64,000 bases of DNA from Prolixibacter sp. NT017 (lineage in GTDB: Bacteria > Bacteroidota > Bacteroidia > Bacteroidales > Prolixibacteraceae). The stretch lies in contig NZ_BLAV01000001.1 of assembly GCF_009617875.1 (NCBI RefSeq), positions 124,001 through 188,000 on the forward strand, written 5' to 3'. The notes beneath the pieces were generated by a model. It saw only the letters and a list, made by a program, of their open reading frames with translations, did not search any database and was not told the origin of the DNA. A program made the translations under genes and the position numbers. Numbering within the stretch: the first letter of the stretch is position 1; the number at the start of each line of letters is the position of its first letter. Positions 3,527 to 62,739 of the stretch are shown here, in pieces.

Positions 3527-5014
3527 TTACAATGTTACGCCTGATTTGAATATGGCCATTTCGCGGAAACCGCTTTTTTCATGATTTAGCTTCTCGCCGC
3601 TGGCCACGTTGATGATATATTGTACAAAATCTTCCAGGAGTTCGTCCATTGGTTTCCCGTTGACCAGCTCACCTGCATTGAAGTCGATCCAATGCTTCTT
3701 TTTCTCGTAAATGGGTGTGTTGGTCGAGATTTTCATGGTCGGAATGAAACTCCCGAAAGGAGTTCCGCGTCCGGTGGTAAACAACACCATCTGGCATCCG
3801 CTGAAACCGAGTGCCGACGTTGCTACCAAATCGTTCCCAGGCGCGGATAACAGGTTGAGGCCTTTCTTGCTCAACGGTTCGCCGTATTTCAACACGTCTA
3901 CAATGGTTGCATTCCCACCTTTTTGGGTACACCCCAGCGATTTTTCTTCCAGTGTTGTAATCCCGCCGGCTTTATTCCCGGGAGAAGGATTTTCATAAAC
4001 AGGCTGATTATGCGATGTGAAGTAATCTTTGAAATCGTTGATTAAACTGACGGTTTTATCGAAGATGGCCTCGCTTTCAGTGCGTTCCATGAGTTGCTTC
4101 TCAGCACCAAACATTTCCGGTACTTCCGTGAGAATAGTAGTTCCGCCGGAAGCGGTCAGGAAATCGGAGAAAGCGCCCAACAACGGATTCGCGGTGATGC
4201 CGGAAAAACCATCGGAGCCGCCGCATTTCAGGCCGATGTTTAGTTCAGAAACGGGAACTTCTTCTCGTTGATCATGACGGATGATTTCATAGAGCTCCTT
4301 CAGTATTTTTACCCCTTCTTCGATTTCATCCTCGACCGCCTGTGCTTTCAGGAAACGAACACGCTCTTCATCGAAATCGCCCAGCGAGTCGCGGAAATCT
4401 TCCATTTGCAAATTTTCACAACCCAGGCTGAGAACCAGTACACCACCGGCATTCGGGTGTTTGGCCATATTCCCCAATACTTTCCTTGTATTGGCATGAT
4501 CATCGCCCAACTGCGAGCAACCGTAGTTGTGCTTGAAAACCTGAACCGCATCGATATCATCCGGCTGTACTTCCGATTTGAAGATGTCCAGAATCTGCTG
4601 AGCCTGCCCGTTCACACAGCCAACCGTCGGGATGATCCAGAGTTCATTCCGGATACCGGCTTTTCCGTTTTTCCGCAGGTAGCCTTTAAACGTGCGGGAC
4701 GCATCACTTTCAGCAACTTTCCTGAAGTTGGGATGGTACTGATATTCCAGGTTTCCCGAAAGATTGGTTTTCAGGTTGTGCGAGTGAATATGTTCGCCGG
4801 CTTCAATCGCAGTCGTGGCATGGCCAATGGGTTCGCCATACTTCAGAATCCATTCGTTGGGTTCAATTTTCCGGATAGCGATTTTGTGACCAGCCGGAAT
4901 TTCCTGCAAAGCAGTTATCAGCTGGCCGTCAATGTCCAGTTGCTCACCGGCGGTCAACGGATTCAGGCAAACAACAACATTGTCTTTGGGCGATATGCGA
5001 ATAAATTTTTCCAT
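3527..5014 (-). CDS. uxaA: Altronate dehydratase
   Basis: UxaA dehydrates D-altronate to 2-keto-3-deoxygluconate (KDG) in galacturonate breakdown. The N-terminal SAF domain (about 1-100) is followed by the UxaA catalytic domain with NYGCSQLGDDH, GCENLQMEDF, GLKCGGSDGFSGITANP and GRGTPFGSFIPTMKISTN. I prefer the Met at 5014 (MEKFIRISPKDN, 495 aa, the family's usual length) to one 16 codons upstream. It lies 68 bp behind uxaB on the same strand and is expected to be co-transcribed with it under the double operator at 6587-6638. Confidence 0.93.
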   Translation of the reverse strand: MEKFIRISPKDNVVVCLNPLTAGEQLDIDGQLITALQEIPAGHKIAIRKIEPNEWILKYGEPIGHATTAIEAGEHIHSHNLKTNLSGNLEYQYHPNFRKVAESDASRTFKGYLRKNGKAGIRNELWIIPTVGCVNGQAQQILDIFKSEVQPDDIDAVQVFKHNYGCSQLGDDHANTRKVLGNMAKHPNAGGVLVLSLGCENLQMEDFRDSLGDFDEERVRFLKAQAVEDEIEEGVKILKELYEIIRHDQREEVPVSELNIGLKCGGSDGFSGITANPLLGAFSDFLTASGGTTILTEVPEMFGAEKQLMERTESEAIFDKTVSLINDFKDYFTSHNQPVYENPSPGNKAGGITTLEEKSLGCTQKGGNATIVDVLKYGEPLSKKGLNLLSAPGNDLVATSALGFSGCQMVLFTTGRGTPFGSFIPTMKISTNTPIYEKKKHWIDFNAGELVNGKPMDELLEDFVQYIINVASGEKLNHEKSGFREMAIFKSGVTL

Positions 5015-14902: not shown

Positions 14903-15405
14903 GCATGTGAAGATGTGTCATCAGGTATTCATTCCATCCCGTTTGCATCTGACGAGGCATTTTTACCACTTGGATGGCTTCACTGGCATCTGGCGGAGCA
15001 CTCTGAATGATTAAGAGTCGTTCATCGGGTTGTGATGAGGCACCTTCAGCAACCGGGAGCACTTCATCACATGCTGATGAATTACTTCTCCAAACTCAGG
15101 CGCTTCATTTGAATCTGATGATGCACTTATATCGGTCCAGACTGTTTGCGCACAGTGCAAAGAGCCGCCTCAGTTTCGGGGAGATGTTCATGCATGCTGC
15201 ATGAAGTGTGTCAGTTTCGGGATGATGCTCATGACGCTGCAATAGGGTGCCTCAGTTCCGGGGAGATACTTGTCACGCTGCAACGGGTTGCGTCAGTTTC
15301 GGGGAGATGTTTTTCTCGCTGCAACGAGGTGCCTCCGTTCCGGGAAGATGTTCGTCACGCTGCAACGGATACCTCCCGGGAAGCCATGCGCTTCATCAGA
15401 TGCTG
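14903..15405. repeat. Degenerate tandem array, about 41-bp period (array A)
   Basis: Anchor pentamers of the form (G/T)(C/G)TG(A/C/G) occur at 14906, 14948, 14989, 15031, 15073, 15114, 15154 (AGTGC), 15196, 15236, 15277, 15318, 15359 and 15402, so spacings are 40-43 bp, mostly 41-42. The five copies starting at 15196-15359 are closest, sharing GCTGCAAC, TGCCTC, GTTTCGGGGAGATG. The earlier copies are more diverged but keep GAGG and GCAC after the anchor. Because 41 is not a multiple of three the repeat cannot encode a periodic protein. It fills the space between gnd and the hydrolase start. Confidence 0.85.
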
Positions 15406-15423: not shown

Positions 15424-15464
15424 CTGTAAGGATGTCATCCCTCAGAGCGATGACATCCTTACAG
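15424..15464. repeat. Palindromic element, copy 1
   Basis: Perfect 16-bp arms, CTGTAAGGATGTCATC and GATGACATCCTTACAG, around a 9-nt loop. The first 20 bases, CTGTAAGGATGTCATCCCTC, are identical to 62703-62722. It abuts the end of array A. Confidence 0.88.
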
Positions 15465-42297: not shown

Positions 42298-42299
42298 CG

Positions 42300-42373
42300 C
42301 GGTCTGGACGGGACTCGAACCCGCGACCCCATGCGTGACAGGCATGTATTCTAACCAACTGAACTACCAGACC
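42300..42373 (-). tRNA. tRNA-Asp (GTC), copy 3 in transcript order
   Basis: Acceptor stem GGTCTGG / CCAGACC, anticodon loop CTGTCAC with anticodon GTC at a 5-bp stem CATGC/GCATG, T-loop TTCGAGT, discriminator G. The CCA end is not encoded. D-loop has the normal G18-G19. Separated from the next copy by 26 bp. Confidence 0.95.
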
Positions 42374-42399
42374 AAAATGGTTCTTCAATATTTTATTGG

Positions 42400-42473
42400 C
42401 GGTCCGGACGGGACTCGAACCCGCGACCCCATGCGTGACAGGCATGTATTCTAACCAACTGAACTACCGGACC
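42400..42473 (-). tRNA. tRNA-Asp (GTC), middle copy
   Basis: As the first copy but with acceptor stem GGTCCGG / CCGGACC, a compensated base-pair change (C-G for T-A). Anticodon GTC. CCA not encoded. Confidence 0.95.
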
Positions 42474-42501
42474 AAAATCGTTTTCCTTAATATTTTATTG
42501 G

Positions 42502-42575
42502 CGGTCTGGACGGGACTCGAACCCGCGACCCCATGCGTGACAGGCATGTATTCTAATCAACTGAACTACCAGACC
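42502..42575 (-). tRNA. tRNA-Asp (GTC), first copy in transcript order, with D-loop change
   Basis: Same acceptor and anticodon as 42300-42373, but the D-loop reads AGTTGATTA rather than AGTTGGTTA, so position 19 is A. G19 normally pairs with C56 of the T-loop, which is kept as C here. This copy may fold less well. The three copies are probably one transcript. Confidence 0.93.
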
Positions 42576-42747
42576 ATGTGTTTTTCAGGAAAACGTTCAC
42601 AAAATATGAAAGAACCGGGCCTTGCGCCCTGCCTTATTTTTAAAGGCGATGCAAATATATAGCTTGTTTCTTTAACTGCAAATCTATACCCCAATTTTTT
42701 TACCAATTTTTCAGTAAACGAAACCGGAAACGCTTTCGTGAATATAC

Positions 42748-44145: not shown

Positions 44146-44787
44146 TTATTCCCAGTTTCCTGCATTGTTATTTGCTTCGGTAAGTGAACCAACTTTCAAG
44201 CCGGGATATTTTCCGTCAACCCTGCTTTTTTCATTCAGATTAATAATTTCCTGTCCGTACTCATCTTCCAACTGACTTAGAATAATGTTATTGTGTGCAC
44301 GTGCTTCGAATACAGCAACGTCAACACCTGAACCAGTCTTCACACGGGCAGCACCCAGGAAAAATTTCTTGCCACCGGAGTAAGGGATGATCGGCAATTT
44401 GTTGATCGGATAATTCTTGCCGAAAACCGAGTCCAATACAGCAACCTTGATCGTGTCACGGATGATCTTACCTTCTCTCAGCGCTTTCTCTTCTGTCCAG
44501 CCAGCGTCAATCATCGAGTCAGTCACTGAACCAATTTTACGCACCAACGGTAACGAGTCAGTCTTTACAAAGGTGAGCAGTGTATCCCAACTACCAGTGA
44601 ATTTTCCATTCACATCCTTGTAAGCCAGCTCTGCCTTACGAATATCTTTCAGTTTATTCACGACCGCGTCGTAGCGTACTTTTTTCTCTTTCTGAAAATC
44701 GATCGGCCTCCGAACAGTGTCGTATATCTCATATGTCAGCACGACTGCTGCGATGATAAGAACAACTTGTAGTAATATTTTCTTCAT
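44146..44787 (-). CDS. Membrane-anchored protein, unknown
   Basis: A 213-residue protein with one N-terminal membrane segment (residues 3-20) and a mostly charged periplasmic part. Residues 37-75 (YDAVVNKLKDIRKAELAYKD, then GKFTGSWDTLLTF) resemble the start of pilin-like or secretin-associated anchored proteins with an NGKFTGSWDTL pattern common in Bacteroidota. I do not recognise a function. It is upstream of DUF3822 with a 10-bp gap, so the two and rsmD form one transcript. Confidence 0.7.
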   Translation of the reverse strand: MKKILLQVVLIIAAVVLTYEIYDTVRRPIDFQKEKKVRYDAVVNKLKDIRKAELAYKDVNGKFTGSWDTLLTFVKTDSLPLVRKIGSVTDSMIDAGWTEEKALREGKIIRDTIKVAVLDSVFGKNYPINKLPIIPYSGGKKFFLGAARVKTGSGVDVAVFEARAHNNIILSQLEDEYGQEIINLNEKSRVDGKYPGLKVGSLTEANNNAGNWE

Positions 44788-44875
44788 TTTTTTTCTGAAT
44801 GAATTTGTTGGTTTGCCTGCAAATTTAAAAAAAAAAATAAATCTTGGGCTGCGGAACTCGCTTAATTTCTGTGAT

Positions 44876-46297
44876 ATGTTAAAAAACCACGTTAAGAATT
44901 CAATATACGAAGTATTGGGTTTTGAACCAACTGAAAGTCAGAAAGAAATGATTGACTTACTCGCTGGTTACATCACCTCGCCCCACGCCGATTTGGTTTT
45001 CCTGTTGAAGGGATATGCGGGTACTGGAAAGACTTCCGTAGTGAGTTCTTTGGTGAAGGTTTTGGCCGGAATGAAGATCCGGACAGTTTTGCTTGCCCCT
45101 ACCGGAAGGGCTGCCAAAGTACTGTCGCATTACGCTCAAACAACTGCATTAACGATTCACAAGAAAATTTATCGGCAAAAATCCACAGCCGATGGTACCG
45201 GCCGGTTTTCACTGGATCGAAATCTGCACAAGGACACCGTTTTTATTGTCGACGAAGCATCCATGATTTCGAACCTGGGGCAGGAGAGTTCCATCTTTGG
45301 TTCCGGGCATTTGCTCGACGATTTGATCGAATACGTTTATACCGGGAAAAACTGCCGGCTAATCCTGGTCGGCGACGTGGCTCAGTTGCCTCCTGTTGGA
45401 CTGGATATCAGTCCGGCGCTCTATCCACAAGAGCTCGAATATTACAACCTCGAAGTGCTGATGAGCGAACTTTCCGATGTGGTGAGACAGGAGGCTAATT
45501 CCGGCATCCTGCACAACGCTACGCAAATCAGAACGATGTTGGAAGAGGAAGCTTCGTTTGGCTACTGGCCGATTGAAACAGAAGAGTTTGATGATATTAT
45601 CCGCTTGAGCGGAGAAGAGTTGATCGAGGAAATTTCTTCCTGTTACAGTAAATACGGGATGGAGGAGACCATGATTGTTACGCGCTCCAATAAACGGGCT
45701 AACAAGTTTAATGAAGGTATTCGCCGAACCGTTCTCTATCGCGAAGAAGAACTCTCCACCGGCGACTTGTTGATGGTGGTGAAGAATAATTATTACTGGC
45801 CTAAGGAAATAGAAGAACTGGATTTTATTGCCAATGGCGACATTGCGGAAGTCATCCGGATACGAAAATATGAAGAAATGTACGGTTTCCGCTTTGCGAA
45901 TGTCTCTTTACGGTTTATCGATTATAAAGACGTGGAGATCGATTGTAAAATCTTTTTGGATACGCTGATGCACGATGGCGCCTCCTTCACATCGGCCGAA
46001 AATAAGCGCTTGTTTGAAGCGGTTTCGGAAGATTATCTTGATATCCGGAATAAACGGCAACGCTGGGAAAAGATTCGGGAGAATGAGTATTTCAATGCAC
46101 TGCAGGTAAAGTTTGCTTATGCGGTGACCTGTCATAAAGCACAGGGCGGTCAGTGGAAGGCTGTTTTTGTCGATCATGGCTACCTGACCGAGGAGATGAT
46201 TGACCGTGAATACCTGCGTTGGATGTATACCGCTTTTACACGCCCAACCGAACGACTTTACCTGGTAAACTTCCGGAAAGAATTTTTTGGAGAATAA
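44876..46297 (+). CDS. RecD-like DNA helicase (UvrD/AAA superfamily 1)
   Basis: A 473-residue superfamily 1 helicase. Walker A LLKGYAGTGKTSVVSSL is near residue 45, motif II VFIVDEASMIS, motif III LVGDVAQLPPVG, and the C-terminal UvrD-like motif ends in VTCHKAQGGQWKAVFVDHG and YTAFTRPTERLYLV. RecB and RecC partners are not present, so it is a stand-alone RecD2-type protein without the long N-terminal domain. I used ATG 44876 (MLKNHVKNSIYE); an upstream extension has no similarity. Confidence 0.9.
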   Translation: MLKNHVKNSIYEVLGFEPTESQKEMIDLLAGYITSPHADLVFLLKGYAGTGKTSVVSSLVKVLAGMKIRTVLLAPTGRAAKVLSHYAQTTALTIHKKIYRQKSTADGTGRFSLDRNLHKDTVFIVDEASMISNLGQESSIFGSGHLLDDLIEYVYTGKNCRLILVGDVAQLPPVGLDISPALYPQELEYYNLEVLMSELSDVVRQEANSGILHNATQIRTMLEEEASFGYWPIETEEFDDIIRLSGEELIEEISSCYSKYGMEETMIVTRSNKRANKFNEGIRRTVLYREEELSTGDLLMVVKNNYYWPKEIEELDFIANGDIAEVIRIRKYEEMYGFRFANVSLRFIDYKDVEIDCKIFLDTLMHDGASFTSAENKRLFEAVSEDYLDIRNKRQRWEKIRENEYFNALQVKFAYAVTCHKAQGGQWKAVFVDHGYLTEEMIDREYLRWMYTAFTRPTERLYLVNFRKEFFGE

Positions 46298-46357
46298 AAC
46301 AGCGGATTTTCTTCCTTGTATTCCTGTTTAAGGATTTTTCGTGTGGAATTTAACCCT

Positions 46358-46630
46358 GAACGAATATGTTTTGGGGTTTTTCTAAATAGAATATTGCTGA
46401 GCAAAAATGTTTGGGCGTCTTTCAAAATAGAATATTGCTGAGCAAACGTGTTTCGACTTCGTTTTATTTAGGAGAAAGCTGAGCAAAAATGTTTGGGAGT
46501 ATTTCTAAACAGAATGAGACTGAGCAAATGTGTTTCGGCTTTATTCTATTTAGGAGGGCGGTGAGCAAACGTGTTTAGGGTTATTTTGAGTTAAATTGAA
46601 TGCCAAACAAAAATGTTTAGCCATAATCGG
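46358..46630. repeat. Tandem array, 41-bp period (array B)
   Basis: Units start at 46358, 46399, 46440, 46481, 46522, 46563 and 46604, all exactly 41 bp apart. Units 2-6 start GAGCAAA and carry TGTTT at offset 10. Units 2 and 4 share GAGCAAAAATGTTTGGG; units 3 and 5 share TGTTTCG and TATTTAGGAG, so a double unit of 82 bp alternates. It occupies the gap between two convergent genes and has no coding capacity. The first and last units are partial matches. Confidence 0.88.
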
Positions 46631-46715
46631 GACAAATCCGGGGCTTTACAAATTGGTTTGGGGATTTCCGGTAGCAGAGGAGGTTCCAACCGGAGTTGTT
46701 TTCCAGGAAAAGAAA

Positions 46716-46741
46716 AACGGGAACTTAAAAAAGCTCCCGTT
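46716..46741. terminator. Bidirectional terminator after array B
   Basis: Stem AACGGGA / TCCCGTT with inner AACTT and AAGC pairing, and an A-rich left flank and T-rich right flank. Confidence 0.75.
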
Positions 46742-46748
46742 CCTTGTT

Positions 46749-48008
46749 TTATTTTTTGTCGTCGAATTTCTTCAGAATATCTTTTACCGCAGCACGGTTG
46801 ATGGTGAAGCCCATCATTTTCAGCTTCACATAATCCTGGCTGAAGAAGTAGTAGCCAAATTCCGGTGCATTCGGATCGTTGTTGCGTGAGCCCGAGCTGG
46901 AATCTTTAATCAGGTACCAGTCTTTGCCATCACCATTAAAATTAGCGAGATAACCTACCAGGTGCATACCGTGATCGTCGGTGGTGCTTTCATTAGCAAA
47001 ACGGAATTCACGGGCATCGTCGTTAATGTATGCCGACGGAATATCGAAATCGGGTACAATCGCACATTGTGTTTCACGTGAGAATCCTGCCTCCGAAACA
47101 TCGCCGCCAATACTCATGGTATAACCTTCGCGAATCGCGTCGTGGATGATTTTCATGAAGACATCGAGCGGAACATTGTAGTAATCTTTGTTGTGCCACC
47201 AGTTGTCCGGTACTTCGTATTCTACTTTCTGCCAGTAAGGCTTTTGCTTGTATGAAAGAATTTCCACGAAATCATTCGGATCGAATTTCAGGTAGTCCTT
47301 CATGTATGCCATTGGGGTCATATCTTTTCCATCGACCATGAAATGTGTGGGAGGAACGCCCATATAGTGGTTCATGATGTCTTTGATGGTTGCCAGCACC
47401 TGTTTCTCATTCCAGGCATTGTTCTTTTTCACCGATTCGAGGTAGTTTTTCATCTCGGCAAACATTTTGGCGTGCGAATGAAATTTGTGACCGTCAATCA
47501 GGCCGGTGTAAGCTGCTTCAGGCATCAAACCGTACTGTTTGGCCAAACGGGCATCGGCGTTTCCTTCCGAACCTTCGTCGAACAGAGAGTTGCCCCGTTT
47601 CTCGACATAGCGGCGGGCTTTTGCAACATATTCCCAATAAACCATGTACATTTCCGACAACTTCACTTTTTTGCCGGTCATGCGGTAAATTTCCGATTCG
47701 TAAAACGAAAGCGTAGAGAAATCCCAGCAGGTACCGGTGTTCCCTTGCGAAATAGGCGGATTGGCCCAATAACGTTTGTAAAGGTCTACTTTGTTGGGAA
47801 GCTTCATTCCCGATTGGTCCATCTGGAAACGATAGTAAGACGGTTCCTTAGCGAGTGAGTCGTTTACCGCGTTTACATCTTTCATGATGGTTTGGTAGTA
47901 GTACCCTTTCCCTTGCGGGATTTCAACCATTTTGCCTTTGTCGCGGTCCTGGGCGAACAAATTAGCCGAGGCCAGCAAAACAGCTGCCAAAAGAATAATT
48001 CTTTTCAT
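46749..48008 (-). CDS. Secreted C1-family (bleomycin-hydrolase-like) peptidase
   Basis: A cysteine peptidase of the papain/aminopeptidase C branch. It has a signal peptide (MKRIILLAAVLLASANLFAQ) and so is periplasmic or exported. The catalytic cysteine is in QGNTGTCWDFS (about residue 100) and the histidine in TDDHGMHLVGY. The third position, usually Asn in an NSWG motif, reads KDSSSGS, an Asp in its place, as I recall for many Bacteroidota homologues. I chose Met 48008; an earlier Met adds a charged, unlikely stretch. 419 aa. Confidence 0.87.
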   Translation of the reverse strand: MKRIILLAAVLLASANLFAQDRDKGKMVEIPQGKGYYYQTIMKDVNAVNDSLAKEPSYYRFQMDQSGMKLPNKVDLYKRYWANPPISQGNTGTCWDFSTLSFYESEIYRMTGKKVKLSEMYMVYWEYVAKARRYVEKRGNSLFDEGSEGNADARLAKQYGLMPEAAYTGLIDGHKFHSHAKMFAEMKNYLESVKKNNAWNEKQVLATIKDIMNHYMGVPPTHFMVDGKDMTPMAYMKDYLKFDPNDFVEILSYKQKPYWQKVEYEVPDNWWHNKDYYNVPLDVFMKIIHDAIREGYTMSIGGDVSEAGFSRETQCAIVPDFDIPSAYINDDAREFRFANESTTDDHGMHLVGYLANFNGDGKDWYLIKDSSSGSRNNDPNAPEFGYYFFSQDYVKLKMMGFTINRAAVKDILKKFDDKK

Positions 48009-48142
48009 GCAAGTTTGTATTTGATTATCGTTTTTCTGCAACAGGTCAGAATGAGCCGCTAAGAGCGAAACATTATGACTTGTTCGACAGAGCTTTATTT
48101 TTAAAGGTTCTAAAAATAGAGATTTCTGACGAAAGAAAATGC

Positions 48143-62702: not shown

Positions 62703-62739
62703 CTGTAAGGATGTCATCCCTCGAAAGGATGACATCCTT
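62703..62739. repeat. Palindromic element, copy 2
   Basis: Arms AAGGATGTCATCC and GGATGACATCCTT (13 bp each) with a 7-nt loop. It starts with the same 20 bases as 15424-15443. It lies just past the guaA terminator. Confidence 0.85.

Follow-up and report, generated by a model that had tools for sequence, protein, structure and literature searches.

A dispersed family of 41-bp tandem arrays in Prolixibacter sp. NT017, and arrays of quantised period on the 5' side of Y1 transposase genes

Intergenic tandem arrays are known from cyanobacteria, in which the LTRR and STRR repeats have periods of 37 and 7, respectively. Slippage, the usual account of short tandem repeats, has no preferred unit length. 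Within the Bacteroidales, Porphyromonas gingivalis is described as carrying repeats of 22, 23, and 41 nt, of which the 23- and 41-nt units are unrelated to each other (PMC4596501). Tandem arrays of REP sequences have been described in P. fluorescens SBW25 (PMC3116915). Enzymes of the HUH superfamily bind single-stranded hairpins, cut, and rejoin, the described cases including IS608, ISDra2, and TnpA-REP of E. coli (PMC6006769). The TnpA-Y1 transposases of subclass 1.2 are found mostly in Bacteroidetes and Cyanobacteria; Table 1 of the same paper enters "no" for REP, and the class is characterised there as generally without insertion sequence ends (PMC6006769).

The DNA analysed here, referred to as the window, is a stretch of 64,000 nucleotides from Prolixibacter sp. 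NT017 (contig NZ_BLAV01000001.1, positions 124,001 to 188,000). As originally predicted, its array B lies in a gap between convergent genes, namely a helicase-like ORF upstream (AAA_30, UvrD_C_2; 44717-46297, plus strand) and a C1-type peptidase ORF downstream (Peptidase_C1_2; 46749-48041, minus strand); the peptidase gene has a terminator-like hairpin at 46713-46744, adjoining the array. Six units start at 46357, 46398, 46439, 46480, 46521, and 46562, in steps of exactly 41 bp. The motif TGAGCAAANNTGTTT opens each of the five exact units from 46398 to 46562 without mismatch (46398-46602, plus strand), and the degenerate first unit (46357-46397, plus strand) with two. Seven starts spaced by 41 bp had been claimed, of which six are exact; the seventh unit, at the end of the array (46603-46643, plus strand), is degenerate, and its motif CAAACAAAAATGTTT, near 46604, is placed 42 bp past the sixth and hence 1 bp out of register. 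On the minus strand, a weak terminator-like hairpin at 46602-46621 extends into this end unit.

Among the five good units, the mean pairwise identity is 0.91 in the 15-bp motif and 0.52 in the other 26 columns, and with an overall unit identity of 0.66 the array is degenerate. The 26 less conserved bases contain an imperfect dyad whose loop has 4 bases (unit columns 22-37; for example 46419-46434, plus strand). Tandem Repeats Finder scored the array at 160 for period 41 and at 231 for period 82. Alternating inverted units, suspected from the 82-bp row, were rejected because what looked inverted is the same dyad with a different loop. A coding origin of the 41-bp arrays was rejected as well, since 41 is not a multiple of three. 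In place of the identical repeats and unrelated, even-length spacers of a CRISPR array, B has 26-bp spacers that resemble one another. No Rfam match was obtained for array B; in the window, the gathering score was reached by three tRNAs and nothing else. Three tandem tRNA genes at window positions 42299-42576 produce a 102-bp repeat.

In the whole 5.14-Mb genome, the exact B motif was found at 21 places and its reversed control pattern at none; a search at up to two mismatches loses specificity (238 places versus 174 for the reversed control). Twenty of the exact places fall into four tandem arrays, all of period 41, at genome positions ~170357 (array B), 1133670, 2933705, and 4172334, and the remaining one is a single copy. 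Array B belongs to a family of 41-bp tandem repeats that is dispersed over the genome. In blastn at E 1e-3, no similarity appeared among the four arrays in their 350-bp flanks. Across 100 genomes, NT017 included, the paired B motif with up to three mismatches occurred in five, four of them Prolixibacter and the other, weakly, of another genus. The unrelated 41-bp unit of array A (15156-15378, plus strand), which fell under "coding" in ORF calling because an overlapping ORF is predicted there, also belongs to a dispersed family, with more 41-bp arrays near 2050188, 3052696, and 3741484. That both arrays have family members of period 41 elsewhere in the genome goes beyond the original prediction. 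Its claim of an equal period without sequence match was borne out, as the A and B consensus units, aligned circularly without gaps, matched at best at fewer than 20 of 41 places, within the shuffled range (mean 17.3, maximum 24). A palindrome, AAGGATGTCATC-N9-GATGACATCCTT, was also recorded, at 13 places in the genome (eight exact, five with one to three mismatches) and in the related genomes G001-G003; in the window it lies at 15426-15462 and 62707-62739, and three copies are less than 4 kb from the transposase gene at 2932852, which is linked to a B-family array.

Twenty-one consensus units of 41 bp, hand-chosen from the arrays found and some of them from targeted stretches, were compared with one another. 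Pairs exceeded the shuffled maximum only within families B, A, and E, and D and the pair C-F reached it. At this resolution, at least six families of exactly 41 bp are unrelated; one of these, family H, belongs to another genus of the same taxonomic family (G016). Three adjoining 41-bp arrays at genome positions 2607305-2608145 (L076) have differing units that are partly alike (26/41 and 21/41), 26/41 being the agreement of the first two. Kinship of these arrays with the 41-bp array beside the gene at 3595507 was considered and rejected, since the ~15 common bases are non-significant over the whole unit. A hairpin was likewise rejected as a feature common to all 41-bp units, as five of 24 consensus units out-fold their shuffles at p<0.05.

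Periods were surveyed in 51 roughly evenly spaced 20-kb stretches together with the window itself, whose arrays had prompted the question, covering 1.08 Mb or 21% of the genome. In the lag spectrum of intergenic six-letter matches, given as multiples of the median, lag 41 stood at 6.4x, lag 42 at 4.4x, and lag 21 at 3.8x, and both 40 and 43 at 1.0x, so the 41/42 peak is sharp. Further peaks appeared at 63, 82, 84, 105, 123, 124, and 126, and peaks outside both classes at 98 (6.2x) and at 137, 110, and 102 (2.1-2.3x). Lag 98 comes from one long array with that period; at 4919301-4920000 (L061), a 98-bp unit in at least seven copies reaches the edge of the sampled stretch. A sharp peak at 41 had been proposed as the sign of a common cause, and it is there, but so are peaks at 42 and 21, and the tabulation revealed a second class, of ~21 bp, whose doubles fall at 42-46. 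Tandem Repeats Finder returned 33 distinct intergenic arrays with a period of at least 15 from the sample, counting once an array that lies in both overlapping contig ends (5119346 and 357). Rather than the broad range named beforehand as speaking against a common cause, 26 of the 33 fall in bands of 20-23 or 40-47, with base periods of 20-23, 41, 42, or 46; the other seven have periods of 16, 16, 17, 24, and 363 or are tRNA-like sets (102 and 110). Gene calling was crude, and 13 more arrays overlap predicted ORFs, eight of these, array A included, being within the bands. The contig ends at ~1-22400 and 5119000-5141405 apparently overlap, near identical with small indels where compared, and some loci may therefore be doubled in the assembly.

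An ungapped detector found 35 arrays against a shuffle mean of 1.0. Their wide spread of lags runs counter to a two-class reading, with one array at 15-19, five at 20-23, one at 24-39, nine at 40-44, three at 45-61, three at 65-80, two at 81-85, and 11 at 86-130, this detector taking the best lag, which is often a multiple of the base period. In the pooled sets, no base period of 28-40 or 48-63 occurs among 99 intergenic arrays. Of 66 arrays outside the NT017 genome, 28 are in the bands: four of 15 in G003, where nine of the other 11 are CRISPR-like, 1/5, 2/2, 1/4, 1/5, and 3/3 in other relatives, and 16 of 32 at 80 named Bacteroidota loci. Period quantisation is thus strong only in the NT017 genome. 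A small E. coli control (200 kb) yielded three tandem loci, with periods of 101, 26, and 47/100. G003 also carries a long CRISPR-like array with a ~30-bp repeat and a period of 64-67 (L193; G003:C1:1900332-1910097). The possibility that 41 is a decayed 20+21 dimer was rejected, as 19 arrays of period 41 showed no 20/21 sub-period. In plain counts, two of 25 arrays lie between divergent genes, versus 99 of 404 intergenic regions of at least 100 bp.

The profile Y1_Tnp (PF01797), an IS200-like HUH transposase domain, exceeded its cut-off at nine places in the NT017 genome, at one of them barely (23 bits). Four of the nine have a quantised array no more than 1.5 kb away, in each case on the 5' side and ~400-700 bp upstream. 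These are an array of 41 x 6.1 beside the gene at 3595507, a 21/42 array beside the gene at 1761469, which has an in-frame stop, an array of 42 x 5.8 beside the gene at 4630276, and a B-family array of 41 x 6.8 beside the gene at 2932762-2933205 (2932852). Equal-sized intervals taken in 100-bp steps through the sample contained an array in 7.6, 5.2, and 2.5% of cases at score cut-offs of 60, 100, and 150, and the corresponding binomial tails for four of nine are 0.003, 0.0008, and 0.00005, the cut-off of 150 having been picked after the scores were known. The association is based on one genome and one ortholog: in G003, the orthologous gene has a B array 5' of it, the motif strand being opposite to the gene, as in NT017, and this ortholog is shortened by a stop past the catalytic tyrosine. 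At the 2933 locus of P. denitrificans, a three-unit remnant was found and no transposase was detected within the 12 kb examined. A profile of the B-linked gene gave best scores of 180 bits in G001 and 206 bits in G002 versus 254-257 bits in G003 and NT017, the proteins of the latter two having been used to build it, which biases the scores toward both.

No array was found within 1.5 kb of L273, L277, or L278 (0/3), three further NT017 genes of other than plain IS200 type, or of six relatives outside the genus (0/6; G016, G033, two from Bernardetia, one from Persicobacter, and one on a viral contig), of which the viral-contig relative is 26% identical and the 5' side in G016 is covered over 0.7 kb only. 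In G016, a 21/42 array lies 4.5 kb off on the other side of the gene. Among phages, one distant hit to the enzyme was obtained. The sampled arrays and array B are all at least 20 kb from each of the nine Y1 genes. For the remaining three gene-linked arrays, no match above chance was detected among the arrays collected, and only the B family is shown to be both linked and dispersed. Compared with shuffles, the 600-bp sides, one or both, are rich in hairpins at five of eight NT017 genes tested and at the G003 ortholog. At L275, L276, L279, and the G003 ortholog, the 600-bp upstream side has 5-6 small hairpins versus 0.7-1.2 expected, and no such excess was present upstream of L272, L273, L274, L277, and L278; the Persicobacter gene, which has no array, is also crowded with hairpins. 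One hairpin that is single in the 5' leader of NT017 forms tandem arrays of ~20 bp in the G003 leader, as if, judged from the sequence, the ~21 class were arising here next to the enzyme. In G003, the B-linked transposase gene is flanked on either side by tandem hairpin repeats of 19-20 bp (L251; 1261-1354, 2079-2145, and 2225-2337).

Both HUH histidines are present in all eight aligned proteins and the tyrosine in seven; the exception, L278 (genome position 4332765), is a Y1_Tnp-like protein with a phenylalanine at the catalytic tyrosine position. The motif Y---Q--HH reads YVKNQKEHH in L279, YVLNQPEHH in L274, YVMNQQEHH in L276, YILNQQEHH in L277, and YIKHQEEHH in L273, and is absent from L272 (IS200 type) and L278 (FIQNHQQHH); this reading leaves out L275, which has a stop, and L280 is partial. 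The three intact array-linked genes all carry Y---Q--HH, which is the motif of TnpA-Y1 subclass 1.2, and NCBIfam places their proteins in IS200/IS605 (55.7-64.1 bits, cut-off 55). Against the REP-transposase family NF047646, seven proteins scored 24-33 bits, with a cut-off of 80, or did not match. Quantised arrays on the 5' side of genes with the subclass 1.2 motif, a class published as repeat-less, are a new observation. Titles and abstract openings among the literature matches listed contained no such arrays in Prolixibacter and no tie between subclass 1.2 and tandem arrays.

Array B has a counterpart at the same locus in P. denitrificans, where 2.8 kb align at 93.6% identity, and in P. bellariivorans (85.7%), and in both species its units are less alike than in NT017. 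Substitutions relative to P. denitrificans affect 2/75 motif and 13/130 spacer positions (p 0.056). The arrays at 4172 and 1133 have orthologs in G003; in P. denitrificans and P. bellariivorans, the same gaps hold other sequence without repeats. At 1133, the flanks of NT017 are nearest to those of P. denitrificans (94-96%, versus 83-85% and 82-83%). The intergenic sequence at 4172 is common to NT017 and G003 and absent in P. denitrificans, and exchange between Prolixibacter lineages at this locus is therefore possible. At 4172, unit identity is 0.91 within NT017, 0.96 within G003, and 0.76 between them, and at 2933 it is 0.91, 0.91, and 0.67, respectively; at 1133, the consensus units of the two genomes match at 21 of 41 places. 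The period is 41 in all of these orthologous arrays, which have been homogenised to different letters with the period kept. B arrays in G001 and G002, as far as found, are decayed only (unit identity 0.55-0.63), with none at 1133 or 4172; the arrays of NT017 and G003 at these two loci are more homogeneous (0.78-0.96). The B dyad differs on both of its sides, being ATTCT/AGAAT in NT017 and TTCGCC/GGCGAA in G003, and over 42 distinct units its helix shows two-sided changes in four of six pairs. For both helices together, 80.2% of cells pair, versus 77.7% after shuffling (seven of 500 shuffles came as high) and no more than 58.1% on sliding, these counts being inflated by relatedness of the sequences. 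RNAalifold favours another, weak stem over the dyad. The dyad is backed by partner changes but is itself weak.

From these comparisons we infer that the arrays owe their formation or upkeep to the enzyme, whose geometry may set their length. The arrays would then be REP-like substrates, copied and homogenised by solitary Y1 (HUH) transposases of the subclass 1.2 type, a proposal to which we give slightly less than an even chance. Enzymes of the HUH superfamily cut at a set distance from a hairpin. The transposase would act on single-stranded DNA at a small hairpin, cutting and rejoining at a fixed distance; repeated cutting and joining beside an existing copy would lengthen the array by one fixed unit, and replacement of units by one another regardless of their letters would homogenise it at a fixed length. 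A founder array would lie directly 5' of the enzyme gene, new arrays would occasionally be seeded elsewhere, and remote arrays, B included, would be acted on in trans or simply decay. Fixed length, fast homogenisation, gene-side placement, and decay once the gene is gone would all follow from such a mechanism. The degeneracy of array B (0.66) despite a gene in the same genome runs counter to it, and array B is most likely a quiet, ageing member of its 41-bp family.

A shared process rather than sequence had been suggested as the source of the equal periods, and the Y1 transposase is a candidate for it, but common descent with fast turnover would also give equal periods. For the 41-bp class, such descent is a serious rival, even if clearly less probable: a single old 41-bp repeat would have spread, unequal recombination and slippage would have kept the units of each array alike through concerted evolution while their letters drifted fast, and register would have held the period with no enzyme involved. 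It draws strength from the orthologous B arrays of NT017 and G003, which keep 41 while the consensus identity drops to 21/41, and from the partial likeness (26/41, 21/41) of the three adjoining arrays at 2607305-2608145. It leaves unexplained why a 20-23 class exists apart, why other periods are scarce, and why arrays lie beside Y1 genes; the similarity of A and B is not above that of shuffles, and the lack of a 20/21 sub-period in the 19 arrays of 41 means that neither class is simply the other doubled.

Two further readings appear unlikely, the second more so than the first. Gyrase has been proposed as the binder of BIMEs in E. coli. If the arrays bound a protein or served topology, sites spaced by two or four helical turns would be kept, together with the 15-bp motif, by selection; identity of 0.91 in motif columns versus 0.52 in the spacer of array B agrees with this, as do the few arrays between divergent genes (2/25 versus 99/404) and the convergent setting of B. 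However, the letters differ wholly between families, which argues against any single sequence-specific protein, and the difference between motif and spacer substitutions since P. denitrificans (2/75 versus 13/130) came with p 0.056. Protein on one face of the DNA, as suggested in the original prediction, also fits less well, in that 41 bp makes 3.9 helical turns of 10.5 bp, not an integral number, and the three- and five-turn periods of 31-32 and 52 were not seen (0/99 in 28-40 or 48-63). Miniature transposons with minisatellites, like BrickBuilt or MITE464/PgRS, would instead have carried arrays along as elements with terminal inverted repeats jumped. P. gingivalis sets a precedent, with unrelated 23- and 41-nt tandem repeats described inside MITE-like elements (PMC4596501), the B family is dispersed, and two of its sites are empty in two relatives; yet nothing that could be a common leader, tail, or terminal inverted repeat recurs in the 350-bp flanks of the four B arrays, and the 1133 locus, judged by eye, has no target duplication. 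With regard to the preferred reading, in which the transposase sets the length, a genome whose unrelated arrays mostly share two lengths, some of them next to a single-strand cutter, makes repeat origin testable: one enzyme, one substrate, one predicted length. If true, it would give a role to the subclass 1.2 transposases, enzymes of no known role. A far bolder extension, which we regard as improbable, is a phylum-wide rule by which subclass 1.2 and its kin would write minisatellites of ~21 or 41 bases regardless of sequence, these being the missing partner of the class, and the 22-, 23-, and 41-nt repeats of Porphyromonas would stem from the same or a like process.

Compared with described systems, the NT017 enzymes agree with TnpA-Y1 subclass 1.2, as described by Quentin et al. 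(2018; PMC6006769), in the HUH and Y---Q--HH motifs, a conserved W, and a length of ~150 aa, as well as in low copy number, low identity between copies, and occurrence in Bacteroidetes. Unlike the subclass as it is presented there (PMC6006769), NT017 has tandem arrays on the 5' side at four of nine Y1 loci (three with an intact motif, one with a stop), and some of these loci also have hairpin clusters. The BrickBuilt and MITE464/PgRS elements of P. gingivalis are similar in their Bacteroidales host, intergenic position, and unrelated 23- and 41-nt tandem repeats, but these repeats are described inside elements with IS5-type terminal inverted repeats (PMC4596501); the four B arrays have neither such ends nor a shared leader or tail. 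With REPs, REPtrons, and REPINs and their RAYT enzymes (PMC6006769, PMC3116915, PMC3733652), the arrays have in common, as far as those descriptions go, a dispersed and intergenic distribution, a group beside the transposase gene, and small hairpins. The B family both flanks its cognate gene and is dispersed, as REP repeats are; the 5' GT[AG]G foot of REPs is not conserved on either strand of the 42-unit B consensus, and a few individual units contain GTGG. In contrast to REP systems, the NT017 arrays are head-to-tail, have a single period and a fast turnover of letters, and accompany enzymes without the REP class 2 motif. Finally, the LTRR and STRR repeats differ from the NT017 arrays in their periods and resemble them in being intergenic tandem arrays in a phylum that has subclass 1.2.
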